In this document: piece by piece, positions 2,674 through 9,490 of the stretch
Layout of the letters: every line of letters begins with the position of its first letter
Position numbering within the stretch: position 1 is the stretch's first letter
Source: Bacillota bacterium
Lineage (GTDB): Bacteria > Bacillota > Clostridia > Caldicoprobacterales > DTU083
Direction of reading: 5' to 3'
Assembly: GCA_029777885.1 (NCBI GenBank)
Contig: JAKORJ010000114.1
Span: 1-33,270, forward strand
DNA: 33,270 nucleotides
Made by a program: the position numbers and the translations under genes
Notes under the pieces: generated by a model
The model's database searches: none
What the model saw: only the letters and a program-made list of their open reading frames with translations
Told to the model about the DNA's origin: nothing

Positions 2674-3681
2674 TTACAACAATTCTATTCCTGCTTCTCT
2701 GCAGCCTGTAATGGTGCTTTGGTCCCACACCGAGACCTGGACCTCGCCGATGTGCGCCTTCTGCAGCAGGAGCATGCACAGCCTCGATTGGCCTATCCCG
2801 CCGCCCATGGTAAGCGGGAGCTCGTCATTCAGCAGCATCCTGTGGAACAGCAGATTGCGGCGGTCATCACATCCTGCCTTGCTTAGCTGCTCATCCAAGG
2901 ATTCCTTGTCGACCCGTATGCCCATGGAGGATACTTCAAAAGCACACCCCAGGATGTCATTCCAGAAGAGGATATCGCCGTTGAGCTTCCAGTCGTCATA
3001 ATCAGGCGCCCTCCCATCATGCTTGATGCCTGATTTCAGCAAATCACCTATCTGCATGATGAAGGCGGTCTTATGGTCCTTTAAATACTTGTCTTCACGC
3101 TCCTTTGGCGAAAGAGCAGGATACATATCCTCAAGCTCCTGGGTCGTTACAAAGGAGACTTCTCGTGATAGTTCAACCGAAAGCACCGGGTACAGCTTCT
3201 TTATATCCTCAAGGGTATCGCAAATAGCGCCGACGATTTTGACCACGGTGCTTTTCAGGGTTTCCAGGTTCCTGGTGTCACGGTCGATGACCTTCTCCCA
3301 GTCCCATTGGTCGACATAGATCGAGTGCAGATTATCCATATCTTCATCGCGGCGTATGGCGTTCATATCAGTGTAGATCCCTTCCCCTACAGGGAAACCA
3401 TACTTGTGCAGGGCTAAACGCTTCCACTTCGCAAGCGAGTGGACGACCTGGGCTTGGTAACCGTCTTCCTTGATATTGAATTCCACGGGCCGCTCTATAC
3501 CGTTTAGGTCATCGTTGATACCGGTGTTGGCCAGGACGAACAATGGGGCCGATACTCTTTTCAGGTTCAATGCCTTGCTGAGATTGTCCTCAAAGATTCT
3601 CTTTATTTTTCCTATTGCACTTTGGGTATCATAAAGGTTCAATAGCGGCCTGTATCCTTTAGGCACTGTCAGCTTGCTCAT
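2674..3681 (-). CDS. asnA: Aspartate--ammonia ligase (asparagine synthetase A)
   Basis: 335 aa; class II synthetase-like; [32 protein letters not shown] and [14 protein letters not shown] typical of AsnA; 13 bp from glnN, likely one transcript. Confidence 0.95.
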
Positions 3682-3700: not shown

Positions 3701-3749
3701 AAAATAAAAAAGAAAAGGTGCCGCGGAACATAAGTTCCACAGCACCTTT
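3701..3749 (-). terminator. Leader terminator (attenuator) in front of asnA
   Basis: Minus strand AAAGGTGCTGTGGAAC-TTAT-GTTCCGCGGCACCTTT (16 bp with two G-U pairs) followed by TCTTTTTTATTTT, between promoter and asnA ribosome-binding site. Confidence 0.85.
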
Positions 3750-3755
3750 GCTGCA
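3738..3755 (-). promoter_or_regulatory. ANTAR-type hexaloop hairpin in the asnA leader
   Basis: TGCAGC-[AAAGGT]-GCTGTG, hexaloop with A1 and G4, overlapping the 5' arm of the leader terminator. Confidence 0.6.
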
Positions 3756-3762
3756 TGTAAAA

Positions 3763-3791
3763 AGTATAGCATCGGATCATTTGGATGTCAA
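3763..3791 (-). promoter_or_regulatory. Sigma-A-type promoter of asnA-glnN
   Basis: Minus strand TTGACA - 17 bp - TATACT. Confidence 0.85.
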
Positions 3792-3926: not shown

Positions 3927-3955
3927 TTGACACTTATATTGGTTTATAGTACCAT
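3927..3955 (+). promoter_or_regulatory. Sigma-A-type promoter of the glutamate synthase/glnA operon
   Basis: TTGACA - 17 bp - TACCAT. Confidence 0.65.
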
Positions 3956-3962
3956 AATTAGT

Positions 3963-3980
3963 GTGAACAAAGGCGTTCAT
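3963..3980 (+). promoter_or_regulatory. ANTAR-type hexaloop hairpin in the glutamate synthase leader
   Basis: GTGAAC-[AAAGGC]-GTTCAT, hexaloop with A1 and G4, overlapping the 5' arm of a long downstream hairpin. Confidence 0.6.
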
Positions 3981-4056
3981 CAGATAGTATCAGGCAACGA
4001 GCCAGGATGGCTTGTAGCCGCTTTTCAGGTACTATGTGATGAGCGCCTTATTTTAT
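3970..4056 (+). terminator. Long leader hairpin, possible attenuator
   Basis: AAGGCGTTCATCAGATAGTAT pairs with GTACTATGTGATGAGCGCCTT (one mismatch, two wobbles), nested hairpin GGCAACGAGCC-AGGAT-GGCTTGTAGCC, then ATTTTAT. Confidence 0.6.
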
Positions 4057-4072
4057 GACAGGAGGCAGGCCA

Positions 4073-5161
4073 GTGAGGGAAGGGATGTTCCGCAATCCAT
4101 CAGGATGCGCCATATCAGGTATCTTTTCAAAGTCCGGAAAGCGCTTTTCCGGCAAACGGATAATAGACTCCATAGCTGTGATGCATGAGCGTTCCAACGG
4201 GCTTGGAGGAGGCTTTGCAGCCTACGGGATCTATCCTGAATACAAGGATCATTATGCCTTTCACATATTTTATGATGACATATATGCCAAAAAGGAATGC
4301 GAGGAGTATCTGGAGGACCATTTTGACATAGCCAGCTTGTCACAGATCCCTACGCGCAAGATACCGGAAATCACAGATACACCTTTGATTTGGCGATATT
4401 TTGCTGCTCCGCTTCCGGCGAAGCTGGCTGACAGCCAGCTGGATGAGCGGGAGTATGTGGTCAGGTGCGTGTTCAGGATAAATACAGCGATTAAAGGCGC
4501 ATATGTCTTTTCCAGTGGAAAGAATATGGGCGTGTTCAAAGCAGTGGGCTTCCCTGAGGACGTAGGCCGATTCTACCGGCTGGAGGAATATGAAGGATAC
4601 TGCTTTATAGCCCATGGTAGGTACCCAACGAACACTCCCGGCTGGTGGGGCGGTGCCCATCCCTTTGCGCTCCTTGATTTTTCAGTTGTCCACAACGGCG
4701 AGATATCATCTTACGATGCGAACCGCCGCTCCATAGAAATGCACGGTTACAAATGCACCCTGCAGACAGACACCGAGGTCATTGCCTATATCATCGACTA
4801 CCTGCACAGGAAGCAGTGGCTTAACCTGAATGAAATATGCTCAGTCATTGCCGCGCCCTTCTGGTCAGTCATAGAGACCAGGCCACGTGAAGATAGGGAA
4901 GAGCTCGAGTATTTAAGATGCGTTTTTGATTCACTGCTGATCAACGGGCCTTTTTCAATAATCGTAGGCTTCGAAGGTGGGATGATGGCGCTTAATGACA
5001 GGCTTAAGCTCCGCAGCATGGTGGTGGGGGAGAAGGATGATATGGTCTACGTTGCAAGCGAGGAGGCTGCCATCAGGGTCATACAGAAGGATCTTGACAG
5101 GGTGTGGTCACCCAAGGGCGGCGAAGGAGTCATAGTAACTATAGAGAAAGGATCGGCATAA
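4073..5161 (+). CDS. Glutamate synthase GATase subunit (class II glutamine amidotransferase), stand-alone
   Basis: Near-N-terminal Cys in CAISGIF, HGRYPTNTPGWWGGAHPFALLDFSVVHNGEISSYDANRR; GTG 4073 has AGGAGG 7 bp upstream, better than the ORF-track ATG at 4055. Confidence 0.85.
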   Translation: MREGMFRNPSGCAISGIFSKSGKRFSGKRIIDSIAVMHERSNGLGGGFAAYGIYPEYKDHYAFHIFYDDIYAKKECEEYLEDHFDIASLSQIPTRKIPEITDTPLIWRYFAAPLPAKLADSQLDEREYVVRCVFRINTAIKGAYVFSSGKNMGVFKAVGFPEDVGRFYRLEEYEGYCFIAHGRYPTNTPGWWGGAHPFALLDFSVVHNGEISSYDANRRSIEMHGYKCTLQTDTEVIAYIIDYLHRKQWLNLNEICSVIAAPFWSVIETRPREDREELEYLRCVFDSLLINGPFSIIVGFEGGMMALNDRLKLRSMVVGEKDDMVYVASEEAAIRVIQKDLDRVWSPKGGEGVIVTIEKGSA

Positions 5162-6666
5162 TGGCTGCTTTTGATATATATCCGGAATATGAAATAGTAA
5201 GGAATAATGAACGGTGCACCAACTGCCGGGTGTGTGAAAAGCAATGCGCAAACGGGGCACATATATTCCTGACTGACAAAAACAGGATGGCTGCTGATGA
5301 TGCCAAATGCGTAAACTGCCACAGGTGTGTGGCTATGTGTCCTGTAAGAGCTTTGAAGATCGTGAAAACCGATCACACCTTCAGAGAAAATTCATACTGG
5401 ACCGGCAAAAGCATAAAGGAGATCAACAGGCAGGCAGAAAGCGGGGGCGTCCTTTTATCCAGCATGGGCAACCCGGAAACCTATCCCGTATACTTTGATA
5501 GAATACTGCTAAATGCGTCCCAGGTCACTAACCCATCCATCGACCCTTTGAGGGAGCCCATGGAAACCAGGGTCTATCTGGGGTCAAAGCCAGAAAAGGT
5601 CGTAAGGGATGAGAAGGGCCGCATTAAGGTCGACCTACCGCCGCATATCATGCTGTCCATACCTGTCATGCTGTCGGCCATGAGCTATGGATCGATCAGC
5701 TATAACGCCCATGAAAGCCTGGCGAGGGCTGCCGCAGAAGCCGGCATCTTATATAATACCGGGGAGGGCGGCTTGCACGAAAACCTATATAACTATGGCA
5801 GTAACACGATCGTTCAGGTTGCATCAGGGCGTTTTGGAGTGCACAAGAAGTACTTAAGCAGTGGAGCCGCTATCGAGATCAAAATGGGACAGGGCGCAAA
5901 GCCTGGTATCGGTGGGCACCTGCCCGGTACTAAGATCGTGGGTGACATTTCTAAGACCCGTATGATCCCTGAGGGCTCCGATGCCATATCTCCGGCCCCT
6001 CACCACGATATTTACTCCATTGAAGACCTGAGCCAGCTCATATATTCGCTAAAGGAGGCAACAGGCTATTCAAAGCCCATAATAGTCAAGATCGCAGCCG
6101 TCCACAATGTCGCTGCGATCGCCAGTGGCATTGCCCGAAGCGGCGCTGACATTATTGCCATTGACGGCTTCAGGGGCGGCACGGGCGCTGCGCCTACACG
6201 GATACGCGATCATGTGGGCATCCCGATTGAGCTGGCCTTGGCCAGCGTTGATAATCGGCTGTGCGATGAAGGGATCCGTAATCGGGTGTCGATCGTGGCC
6301 GGAGGGGGCATCCGTTCCAGCGCTGATGTTGTCAAGGCAATAGCGCTTGGCGCTGATTGCGTATATATAGGTACTGCAGCCCTCATTGCCCTGGGCTGCC
6401 ACTTATGCCGGAGCTGTCATACCGGCAAATGCAACTGGGGAATAGCCACCCAGAGGGAGGACCTGATGAAACGTTTGAACCCTGACTGGGGATACAAAAG
6501 GCTGGTGAACCTCTTGAATGCCTGGAAGCATGAAATAATGGAAATGATGGGCGGCATGGGCATAAACGCCATAGAAAGCCTAAGAGGCAACCGGCTTATG
6601 CTCCGTGGTGTAGGCTTAAATGAAAAAGAGCTTGAGATACTGGGCATCAAGCATGCGGGAGAATGA
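5161..6666 (+). CDS. Glutamate synthase FMN-binding subunit with N-terminal 2x[4Fe-4S] ferredoxin domain
   Basis: CTNCRVCEKQC and CVNCHRCVAMCP motifs followed by glutamate synthase core (MSYGSISYNAHESLARAAAEAG, GEGG, KMGQGAKPGIGGHLPGTK); ATG 5161 overlaps upstream stop region. Confidence 0.92.
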   Translation: MAAFDIYPEYEIVRNNERCTNCRVCEKQCANGAHIFLTDKNRMAADDAKCVNCHRCVAMCPVRALKIVKTDHTFRENSYWTGKSIKEINRQAESGGVLLSSMGNPETYPVYFDRILLNASQVTNPSIDPLREPMETRVYLGSKPEKVVRDEKGRIKVDLPPHIMLSIPVMLSAMSYGSISYNAHESLARAAAEAGILYNTGEGGLHENLYNYGSNTIVQVASGRFGVHKKYLSSGAAIEIKMGQGAKPGIGGHLPGTKIVGDISKTRMIPEGSDAISPAPHHDIYSIEDLSQLIYSLKEATGYSKPIIVKIAAVHNVAAIASGIARSGADIIAIDGFRGGTGAAPTRIRDHVGIPIELALASVDNRLCDEGIRNRVSIVAGGGIRSSADVVKAIALGADCVYIGTAALIALGCHLCRSCHTGKCNWGIATQREDLMKRLNPDWGYKRLVNLLNAWKHEIMEMMGGMGINAIESLRGNRLMLRGVGLNEKELEILGIKHAGE

Positions 6667-6717
6667 AGCAAATTGCCTTGATATGAAGTTATATATATGC
6701 AATTGGGGGTAATATAA

Positions 6718-7434
6718 ATGAATGTATCAGCTCGCAGGCTGGGAAGCCGGGCGTTGAACGATGAAATAAGAAGGGCTGAAGAAGATATAATAATCGAAGA
6801 CTGCTTTGGTGAACGCTACATCGGGAGCGGTGCCTCATCCATTACAATAACGATAAACGGCACGCCGGGGAATGCCATGGGAGCCTACCTGGACGGGGCA
6901 ACCATTATAGTAAATGGCAATGCCCAGGATGCTATCGGAGATACTATGAATGACGGTAAGATAATAATACATGGCAATGCCGGTGATGCTCTAGGATATG
7001 CCATGCGGGGCGGGAAGATCTATGTGAAGGGTGATGCCGGGTACCGGACCGGCATCCATATGAAGGAGTATAAGGATAAAAGGCCGGTCATAGTAGTAGG
7101 CGGAAGCACAGGAAGCTTTCTAGGCGAATATCTCGCCGGTGGGATAATCATAGTTTTGGGTATGGAGTCTGAAGCCTTTCCTGTAGGTGACTTTACGGGG
7201 ACCGGCATGCATGGCGGCCTGATATTCATAAGGAGCAGCACACCTCCGGCCAAACTACACAAACAGGTGACTGTAAGCCTGGCAGACGACTCGGATATGG
7301 GATTTATAAACGAGTACCTGATGGAGTATGCGGATACTTTCGGGCTCAGCATCGATGAAATATTGCGCAAACCCTTTTATCGGCTTGCGCCGAACGCCAA
7401 AAATCCATACAAGCAGCTGTACACCATATACTAG
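6718..7434 (+). CDS. Glutamate synthase GXGXG-domain subunit
   Basis: 238 aa repeated beta-helix pattern (NAMGAYLDGATIIVNGNAQDAIGDTMNDGKIIIHGNAGDALGYAMRGGKIYVKGDAGYRTGIHMKEY). Confidence 0.9.
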   Translation: MNVSARRLGSRALNDEIRRAEEDIIIEDCFGERYIGSGASSITITINGTPGNAMGAYLDGATIIVNGNAQDAIGDTMNDGKIIIHGNAGDALGYAMRGGKIYVKGDAGYRTGIHMKEYKDKRPVIVVGGSTGSFLGEYLAGGIIIVLGMESEAFPVGDFTGTGMHGGLIFIRSSTPPAKLHKQVTVSLADDSDMGFINEYLMEYADTFGLSIDEILRKPFYRLAPNAKNPYKQLYTIY

Positions 7435-7448
7435 GAAGTTAAATTACA

Positions 7449-7577
7449 ATGAGTATAGGAAATTCGTGGCCTGAATCGGATGATATGAATGAGAATAACC
7501 GTTTTCAAGTGGATCTATGTGATGATAAAATGAACATAAATGCTTTATCGCTGGAAAAAGGAGGCTGGATGCTTTGA
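7449..7577 (+). CDS. Possible 42-aa microprotein between the GXGXG subunit and glnA
   Basis: ATG...TGA ORF MSIGNSWPESDDMNENNRFQVDLCDDKMNINALSLEKGGWML; AGGAAG upstream; its stop overlaps the TTG start of glnA. Confidence 0.4.
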   Translation: MSIGNSWPESDDMNENNRFQVDLCDDKMNINALSLEKGGWML

Positions 7578-8893
7578 ATCATACTGCCAGTGAAGTGCTG
7601 GAATTTGTCAGGGAAAACGATGTGAGGTTCATCTGGCTCAACTTCTGCGACCTGTTTGGAGCTCAGAAAAGGATCTCAATAATGGCTGATGAGCTGGAAT
7701 CTGCATTTGAGCACGGGGTGTCCTTCGACGCTCATGCTGTACAGGGGTTTAAGGATGTCACCCAGTCTGATCTGTTCCTCTATCCGGACCCTTCCACCTT
7801 GATGGTCATGCCATGGCGCCCCGGCCCGGGCAGGGTCGTACGTTTTTATTGCGACATAAGGAATCCCGATGGGTCAGTGTTCGCCAATGACAGCCGGTAT
7901 ATCCTGAAACAGGTCACCGGCAAATGCGAAGGCATGGGGTTTGTTTGCAAGATAGGGCCGGAGTGCGAGTTCTACCTTTTCAAGACCAATGAGGATGGCG
8001 AACCTACAGATACACCGCTCGACAGGGGAGGATATCTGGATATGCATCCTCTTGATATGGGCGGCGACATACGGCGTGAAATATGCCTTACACTTGATGA
8101 AATGGGTATAAAACCTGAGACCTCCCATCATGAACAAGGGCCCGGCCAGAACGAGATCGACTTCAAGTTCAGCGATGCACTCTCAAGCGCGGACAACCTG
8201 CAGACATTCAAGGCTGCTGTCAAATCCATAGCTGCCCGAAACGGCCTATACGCTTCCTTTATGCCAAAACCTATACCCGGTGCTCCGGGCAGCGGCATGC
8301 ATGTCAACATCTCCCTGGCCAAAAACGGGCTGAATGTTTTCAAGGATATCAAGGAAGGCCAATCAAATGCCGCTGAAAGCTTTATTGCTGGTATACTTGC
8401 GAGAATACCGGAGATAACCATTTTCCTGAATCCCATCGCCAACTCATATGAGCGTTTCGGAAAATTTGAAGCTCCGGCATATGTTTCATGGTCACACCAT
8501 AATCGCTCTCAGCTCATAAGGATACCCGCAGCTATCGGAGAAAAGGTAAGGATGGAGCTGCGCTCACCGGATCCCTCGATGAATCCTTATCTTGGGTTTG
8601 CACTTATCATAGCTGCGGGTCTGGAGGGGATAGAGAAGGGCATGGTCCTGCCTGCCGCTGCCAATGTGGATTTGTACAAGGCGGATGAAGCCTTGACGAA
8701 AACCTTGACACCACTGCCTTTGAGCATGGACGAGGCAGTAAGGCTTGCTGAGGTCAGTGATTTTGTAAAAGGCGTGATCGGTGACGAACTGCATTCCAAG
8801 TACATTGCTGCCAAAAAGAAAGAAGCAGGGGATTTCGCAGCTGCTGAAGATAAAATGGTATTTTACAAAAGAAAATATTTCGGAGTAATTTGA
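7574..8893 (+). CDS. glnA: Glutamine synthetase type I
   Basis: 439 aa; ENDVRFIWLNFCDLFG, GPECEFYLF, EQGPGQNEIDFKFSDAL, GSGMHVNISL, NPYLGFALIIAAGLEGI; TTG start after AAAGGAGG. Confidence 0.95.
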   Translation: MNHTASEVLEFVRENDVRFIWLNFCDLFGAQKRISIMADELESAFEHGVSFDAHAVQGFKDVTQSDLFLYPDPSTLMVMPWRPGPGRVVRFYCDIRNPDGSVFANDSRYILKQVTGKCEGMGFVCKIGPECEFYLFKTNEDGEPTDTPLDRGGYLDMHPLDMGGDIRREICLTLDEMGIKPETSHHEQGPGQNEIDFKFSDALSSADNLQTFKAAVKSIAARNGLYASFMPKPIPGAPGSGMHVNISLAKNGLNVFKDIKEGQSNAAESFIAGILARIPEITIFLNPIANSYERFGKFEAPAYVSWSHHNRSQLIRIPAAIGEKVRMELRSPDPSMNPYLGFALIIAAGLEGIEKGMVLPAAANVDLYKADEALTKTLTPLPLSMDEAVRLAEVSDFVKGVIGDELHSKYIAAKKKEAGDFAAAEDKMVFYKRKYFGVI

Positions 8894-8896
8894 TTT

Positions 8897-9490
8897 GTGG
8901 CGAAAGGCAGCACGGGTATGGAATACGTTTTGATAGTATCGAATTCAGAAAAAGGGGCGGCATTGATTTCTGAACTGCTTAACCCGGCGTCCGTCTGCCA
9001 GATCATTGCTGTCAAATCCTGCGGCGAAGCACGGAGACTCCTGCTGGAACGGGATTTCGATCTGGTGATCATCGATGCTCCGCTAAAGGACGAGACCGGC
9101 GAAAGCCTTGCTATGCATGCAGCCTCCAGGGAGATGACACAGGTCATCCTGATTGTAAGGCGGGAATTCTACGAAGCCGTGTCAGCTGTATGCGAAAGAG
9201 AAGGGGTACTGACTATTGAAAAGCCGGTCAATAGGTATATTTTCATGTCTGCGCTATCGCTTGCCCGATCAGTCTACAACAGGATGAAAAAGATACAGAC
9301 CGAAAACGCCCAACTGAAGAAAAGGATAGAAGATATACGCATTGTGGACCGCGCCAAGTGTATACTTATATCCCTGATGAGCATGAGCGAAAAGGAAGCC
9401 CACAGGTATATTGAAAAACAGGCGATGGATATGCGCATCACCAAAAGGGCGGTGGCTGAAAGGATTCTAAAAACCTATGAGGATTTATAA
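8897..9490 (+). CDS. ANTAR-domain antiterminator with degenerate receiver domain (NitR-like)
   Basis: 197 aa; receiver-like N-terminus, coiled coil, then RAKCILISLMSMSEKEAHRYIEKQAMDMRITKRAVAERIL (ANTAR); 3 bp after glnA. Confidence 0.85.
   Translation: MAKGSTGMEYVLIVSNSEKGAALISELLNPASVCQIIAVKSCGEARRLLLERDFDLVIIDAPLKDETGESLAMHAASREMTQVILIVRREFYEAVSAVCEREGVLTIEKPVNRYIFMSALSLARSVYNRMKKIQTENAQLKKRIEDIRIVDRAKCILISLMSMSEKEAHRYIEKQAMDMRITKRAVAERILKTYEDL

Follow-up and report, generated by a model that had tools for sequence, protein, structure and literature searches.

What controls the transcription of asnA and glnN in this genome? The window, by which we mean the whole analysed stretch of 33,270 nucleotides from a clostridial member of the Bacillota, carries on its minus strand asnA, encoding an aspartate-ammonia ligase (2674–3681; Pfam AsnA, 1.4e-104), and downstream of it glnN, encoding a type III glutamine synthetase (561–2660; Pfam GSIII_N, 4.2e-82). 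Our analysis indicates that the asnA leader is very probably an ANTAR-controlled transcription attenuator with a single hexaloop, for which the ANTAR protein encoded next to glnA would serve as the antiterminator of asnA-glnN. The RNA elements, their covariation, the conservation of A1 and G4 in the loop, the position of the elements, the regulon and the co-occurrence with ANTAR genes are all computed results.

The sequence upstream of asnA contains a sigma-70 type promoter (3763–3791, minus strand), in which TTGACA at 3791–3786 and TATACT at 3768–3763 are separated by 17 nt. Transcription is predicted to start at A3758 or A3756. Seven nucleotides after TATACT begins the hairpin TGCAGC[AAAGGT]GCTGTG (3738–3755, minus strand), a predicted ANTAR binding site and antiterminator to which sequence, folding and stem covariation all point. 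It consists of the 5′ arm TGCAGC (3755–3750), the loop AAAGGT (3749–3744) and the 3′ arm GCTGTG (3743–3738), and its 6-bp stem comprises four Watson-Crick and two G-U pairs. The hairpin overlaps a 16-bp intrinsic terminator (3714–3749, minus strand), in which nucleotides 3749–3734 pair with 3729–3714 around a 4-nt loop. The U-tract of the terminator occupies 3701–3716, its first three U residues being also paired within the stem, and is followed by the asnA Shine-Dalgarno sequence AAGGAGG (3697–3691) and the ATG at 3681. An initial annotation of this DNA had described the promoter, the AAAGGT hexaloop, the 16-bp terminator, the U-tract and the Shine-Dalgarno sequence, and all of them match base for base.

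The 5′ arm of the terminator begins with the hexaloop and the 3′ arm of the hexaloop hairpin. Because nucleotides 3749–3738 are common to both structures, the two are mutually exclusive, just as the initial annotation had claimed. The 79-nt leader folds with an energy of −38.3 kcal/mol (z = −7.4), a value equalled by none of 200 shuffled sequences, and its predicted shape is that of the terminator. When folded as isolated elements, the terminator has an energy of −27.2 kcal/mol compared with −7.2 kcal/mol for the hexaloop hairpin. Since the terminator is far more stable, the unaided RNA should terminate, and any factor preventing this would have to intervene before the terminator's 3′ arm has been synthesized. 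In the model of the bare RNA, A1 and U6 of the window's asnA loop pair with each other, since position 6 is U, leaving an AAGG tetraloop, a point against the ANTAR reading. Such pairing is impossible in leaders with the loop AAAGGC.

Does the window contain other elements of this type? A scan for terminator-overlapping A..G.. hexaloops with stems of 4 bp or more returned two sites only, the asnA site and one at 3964–3979 on the plus strand. The latter lies in front of a divergent operon that comprises gltB-like genes, glnA and an ANTAR gene. Its promoter (3927–3955, plus strand), assigned from sequence and promoter score, has TTGACA at 3927–3932 and, after 17 nt, TACCAT at 3950–3955. The hairpin itself, TGAAC[AAAGGC]GTTCA, was supported by both the scan and folding and has a stem different from that of asnA; a long terminator overlaps it (3970–4049, plus strand; −49.8 kcal/mol, z −8.8). 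Of the four pairs nearest the loop, two differ between the window's two stems, through changes on both sides or on one side of the pair, and pairing is kept in either stem. Thus, a second leader, missed by the initial annotation, is present at 3964–4049 on the plus strand, and the ANTAR gene appears to be under its own control.

The operon behind this leader begins with split glutamate synthase-like genes (4055–7434, plus strand), which fall into three parts by domain: a class II glutamine amidotransferase gene that starts at 4055 or, more likely, at 4085 and ends at 5161 (its relatives begin MFRNxSG), a part with the Glu_synthase domain (5104–6666) and a GXGXG part (6718–7434). Next come glnA, encoding a type I glutamine synthetase of 439 aa recognized by domain search (7574–8893, plus strand), and the gene for an ANTAR regulator with a degenerate receiver domain (8897–9490, plus strand; Pfam ANTAR, PF03861, 1.8e-15). 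The ANTAR domain is at the C-terminus of this protein, the predicted trans-acting antiterminator. The rest of the regulon in the window's own genome (G000) was explored by pattern search only. The hairpin TGAAC[AAAGGC]GTTCA, together with a long terminator, is also found there at about 813–875 on the minus strand of G000:C87 (L289), before a purB-like gene that we named by eye from its sequence as encoding adenylosuccinate lyase. In addition, the genome has a second asnA (L292, G000:C179:5583–6587), which is 62% identical to that of the window and lacks a hexaloop leader.

We then asked how widespread the element is. Orthologous asnA leaders in other genera (L002, L003, L004, L006 and L007) keep AGC[AAAGGY]GCT and the terminator. 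A scan of species-representative genomes for the stem-loop, with a 3-bp stem fixed, plus a terminator yielded at least 120 loci; the AGCAAAGGYGCT pattern without a terminator occurs by chance too frequently to be used alone. The titled loci among the scan matches listed belong mostly to Lachnospiraceae and other Clostridia. Among these matches, the first gene downstream encodes GSIII in at least 31 cases and an ammonium transporter (amtB) in at least 19, other downstream genes being those for Asn synthase, class II amidotransferases, carA/B, pyrG, P-II and AsnA. The downstream genes in relatives form a nitrogen-assimilation regulon, as the initial interpretation would predict. A strong sigma-70 promoter precedes 85 of 118 leaders among the matches listed, compared with just 10, and no peak, for the control region, and the −10 box in this set of 118 mostly ends 10–14 nt before AGC. 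With this spacing, the transcript is predicted to start a few nucleotides before the hexaloop stem. The loop, the stem complementarity, the terminator and the promoter spacing recur across genera, and by this sequence comparison the asnA leader is more than a chance arrangement.

Some of the relatives show variations on the arrangement. In the sister genome G001, amtB (L291, G001:C29:82984–83110) is preceded by two complete hexaloop-terminator units in series, with identical loops and different stems, and a Desulfosporosinus leader (L161) likewise consists of two complete single-hexaloop attenuators in series. Proteobacterial and verrucomicrobial leaders L092, L105, L109 and L134 combine AAAGGC with a second upstream A1/G4 hexaloop, some of them before nitrate/nitrite genes; as expected, these fit NasR/NasT targets. 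At L344 (4471, minus strand), pyrG, encoding CTP synthase, a glutamine user, is preceded by an AAGGGT hexaloop attenuator near an ANTAR gene.

A covariance check in relatives, which the initial annotation had proposed, revealed that the hexaloop stem covaries strongly. The fourth stem pair, left unfixed by the search pattern, is Watson-Crick in 89 of 119 leaders among the matches listed, compared with 39.7 expected, and A-T, C-G, T-A and G-C all occur at this position among them. For 62 leaders selected on nothing but loop and terminator, each of pairs 1–5 scored above all 2000 shuffles, which neither pair 6 nor pair 7 did. Alignment A2, which comprises 36 leaders hand-picked from an unselected set and is thus biased to paired stems, the 62-leader counts being less biased, has a covariation score of 0.741 versus 0.254 when shuffled, with 92% of its cells paired versus 67% when shuffled and at most 52% when slid. 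Since the 5′ arm of the hexaloop hairpin lies outside the terminator, the terminator cannot account for the pairing of this arm.

The loop was assessed in a blind sample of 40 loci (551 kb) picked solely for holding an ANTAR gene. Of the hexaloops in these loci, 16 are promoter-proximal and overlap with a terminator; 12 of the 16 have both A1 and G4 (background 6.7%), and two of the remaining four arise when the same hairpins are read with a shift. Each of the 12 A1/G4 hexaloops is located 5′ of GSI, GSIII, gltB-type, asnA or pyrG genes. The loops AAAGGC, AATGGC, AACGGC and AAGGGT were found, in which positions 1 and 4 are constant and others change. The A1/G4 signature of ANTAR targets, to which the initial annotation had appealed, is thus kept in loops sampled without selecting on those positions.

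The distribution of the element follows that of ANTAR genes. An ANTAR gene is present in 26 of the 27 genomes with a hexaloop-terminator compared with 127 of 246 genomes of the class overall (Fisher p = 1.5e-7, treating as independent genomes that are not entirely so, the 27 coming from 22 genera). In G237, the sole motif genome without ANTAR, the 500 nt downstream of the motif contain no gene of 60 codons. Since no gene was found behind it, we discarded this hexaloop-terminator as probably a chance match. In the window's assembly, which is 91% complete, the ANTAR gene about 5 kb from the asnA leader is the only one found (one match in G000). On the opposing side, among 28 unselected loci with a His-type ANTAR gene, 6 have an AAAGGY leader and 13 have any A1/G4 hexaloop, at the set thresholds and within the fetched stretch.

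What kind of regulator might act on these leaders? Of the 83 ANTAR genes examined, 61 immediately follow a gene for a type I glutamine synthetase. All 61 glnA-linked ANTAR proteins lack the receiver's acidic pair, and in 52 of them another residue, mostly Asn, takes the place of the phosphoacceptor Asp. The receiver of the window's ANTAR protein retains Asp60 and Lys109, has lost the acidic pair and has Val in place of Thr, so that its phosphorylation site is incomplete. EutV is known to be regulated by phosphorylation and AmiR, whose receiver cannot be phosphorylated, by a partner protein. The loss of the acidic pair suggests that the glnA-linked group is under partner-type, kinase-free control. 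Perhaps the signal comes from the glutamine synthetase encoded next door, the obvious candidate partner; in Bacillus, glutamine synthetase is the partner of both GlnR and TnrA. At the position of EutV Tyr164, which stacks on loop G4, the window's ANTAR protein (in our alignment) and most glnA-linked homologs have His, and so does AmiR. The window's protein appears to be of the NitR kind, NitR of Clostridium acetobutylicum being encoded by an ANTAR gene next to glnA.

Is a single hexaloop a credible ANTAR target? According to the study of eut regulation (PMC3369931), two hexaloops are a feature of every characterized ANTAR attenuator, removal of the first hairpin of eutP abolished induction, and the eut linker between the hexaloops is 5–12 nt, with lengths of 3 or 14 nt drastically reducing induction. 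A crystal structure study narrowed the binding site down to one hexaloop, with antitermination still requiring two successive contacts (PMC8934654). These findings would favor a dual target like those already described, with a first hairpin that had been overlooked, and the initial annotation had itself been uneasy about the single stem, suggesting a minimal variant. However, we looked for a second hexaloop upstream of the first in the window and found none, and the predicted transcription starts leave no space for it. Among the matches listed, which are mostly from Clostridia, a second upstream A1/G4 hexaloop occurs in 14 of 110 leaders versus 10.7 for control letter pairs. The corresponding numbers for the non-clostridial group among the matches listed, several of which stand ahead of nitrate or nitrite genes, are 6 of 10 versus 0.8, showing that the test is able to detect a second hexaloop where present. 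The dual target is thus largely refuted, and we consider it quite unlikely; it is one hexaloop that is conserved in the clostridial set, and the earlier doubt about an overlooked stem is resolved in favor of the variant. The element is, as judged from these comparisons, a widespread clostridial single-hexaloop, 5′-terminal variant of the ANTAR attenuator, although the eutP first-hairpin deletion (PMC3369931) and the two-contact requirement (PMC8934654) count against one hexaloop being sufficient.

Other explanations do without the hexaloop as an RNA signal. The inverted repeat could be a DNA operator bound by a dimeric regulator, with the terminator being incidental, and the repeat indeed lies near the transcription start, a frequent location of repressor binding. 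Yet its arms vary freely (CAGC/GCTG, GAAC/GTTC, GACAC/GTGTC, AAGGC/GTCTT) and include G-U pairs, meaningful in RNA only, whereas the middle AAAGGY and the closing C-G pair are nearly fixed, which is the opposite of an operator pattern. Moreover, the element repeatedly overlaps a terminator and follows the distribution of ANTAR genes, making an operator very improbable. We give still less credence, hardly any, to a leader peptide that, through glutamine codons (CAG CAA at the 5′ end), would couple attenuation to the ribosome, or to a T-box. Although an ATG at 3756 of the window opens a 22-codon frame starting Met-Gln-Gln, there is no space for a Shine-Dalgarno sequence, a start codon is in frame with xAG CAA in just 6 of 69 promoter-supported leaders among the matches listed, and the stems of many leaders lack CAG CAA. 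As to a T-box, already dismissed in the initial annotation, neither it nor any other Rfam family gave a match to the leader, whether at the gathering score or with E values as high as 5. Finally, the attenuator may be real and its factor another ANTAR protein or a different RNA-binding protein. The role of the glnA-linked ANTAR protein is a prediction from sequence, the window's protein has His for Tyr164, and a further ANTAR gene could be missing from the incomplete assembly. Against this stand the single ANTAR gene found in that assembly, the same leader before this gene's own operon, the presence of ANTAR genes in all motif genomes but the one with no gene behind its motif, and the A1/G4 loop, which is the published ANTAR signature. 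A different factor is therefore unlikely, and the glnA-linked ANTAR protein is retained as the putative antiterminator.

The single-hexaloop attenuator could operate as follows. RNA polymerase would start a few nucleotides before the stem, and the AAAGGY hairpin would be the first to emerge. The active glnA-linked (NitR-like) ANTAR protein would bind this hairpin and thereby withhold its loop and 3′ arm from the terminator, allowing asnA-glnN to be transcribed. If no protein is bound, the far more stable terminator would form and RNA synthesis would end before the Shine-Dalgarno sequence. The gltB-like/glnA/ANTAR operon would be controlled likewise and, as the ANTAR gene belongs to this operon, the control would be self-activating. 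From sequence we infer that the ANTAR protein binds, that the switch is on under a shortage of nitrogen or glutamine, and that the signal does without a kinase. Going further, it is possible, if somewhat short of probable, that one hexaloop at the 5′ end is sufficient across Clostridia, for both nitrogen assimilation and glutamine-consuming enzymes, and that the non-phosphorylated receiver is governed by the adjacent glutamine synthetase acting as a sensor.

The published model needs two hexaloops per leader, though one dimer is unable to bind both simultaneously. The large conserved set of one-hexaloop leaders allows a direct test of why other leaders need two; search models built on two stems could overlook such sites. 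The set also suggests a control route for glnN, amtB, asnA, gltB and amidotransferase genes in numerous Clostridia of the gut and the environment, and draws attention to an as yet unexplored link from glutamine synthetase to a regulator that binds RNA. If this link is true, glutamine synthetase would be the sensor of an RNA-based nitrogen switch.

Some of this is already known. Ramesh et al. 2012 (PMC3369931) predicted that glutamate and glutamine genes of Firmicutes are under ANTAR control, including glutamate synthase/nitrogen regulons in Desulfotomaculum reducens and D. acetoxidans, and NitR of Clostridium acetobutylicum is cited in another source (PMC4676874) as an antiterminator of ammonia assimilation. 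The novelty lies in the single-hexaloop architecture, backed by covariation, and in the degenerate receiver of the glnA-linked regulator. In the NitR literature searched, we found neither a 5′-terminal single-hexaloop target nor a Clostridia-wide regulon, and our literature search, with supplements and subscription papers outside its scope, returned no description of single-hexaloop leaders.

The EutV-controlled eut leaders of Enterococcus faecalis (PMC3369931; PMC8934654) resemble the leaders described here in having an A1/G4 hexaloop on a short stem, a terminator-proximal hexaloop that overlaps the 5′ arm of the terminator, a linked ANTAR gene and nitrogen genes under control. They differ in that here there is one hexaloop instead of two, it is at the extreme 5′ end, the loop is a near-fixed AAAGGY, and the regulator has a degenerate receiver, whereas that of EutV is phosphorylated. 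The Desulfotomaculum regulons share with the present set predicted ANTAR attenuators before glutamate/glutamine synthesis genes of Firmicutes; unlike the single-hexaloop set, they were found with a dual-hairpin model, and the two sets may overlap. On the side of the regulator, AmiR-AmiC of the Pseudomonas amidase system likewise features an ANTAR antiterminator with a non-phosphorylatable receiver and His at the Tyr164 position, and NasT-NasS an ANTAR antiterminator under the control of a partner protein. In contrast to both, the protein encoded directly upstream of the regulator here is a type I glutamine synthetase and not an amide or nitrate sensor.
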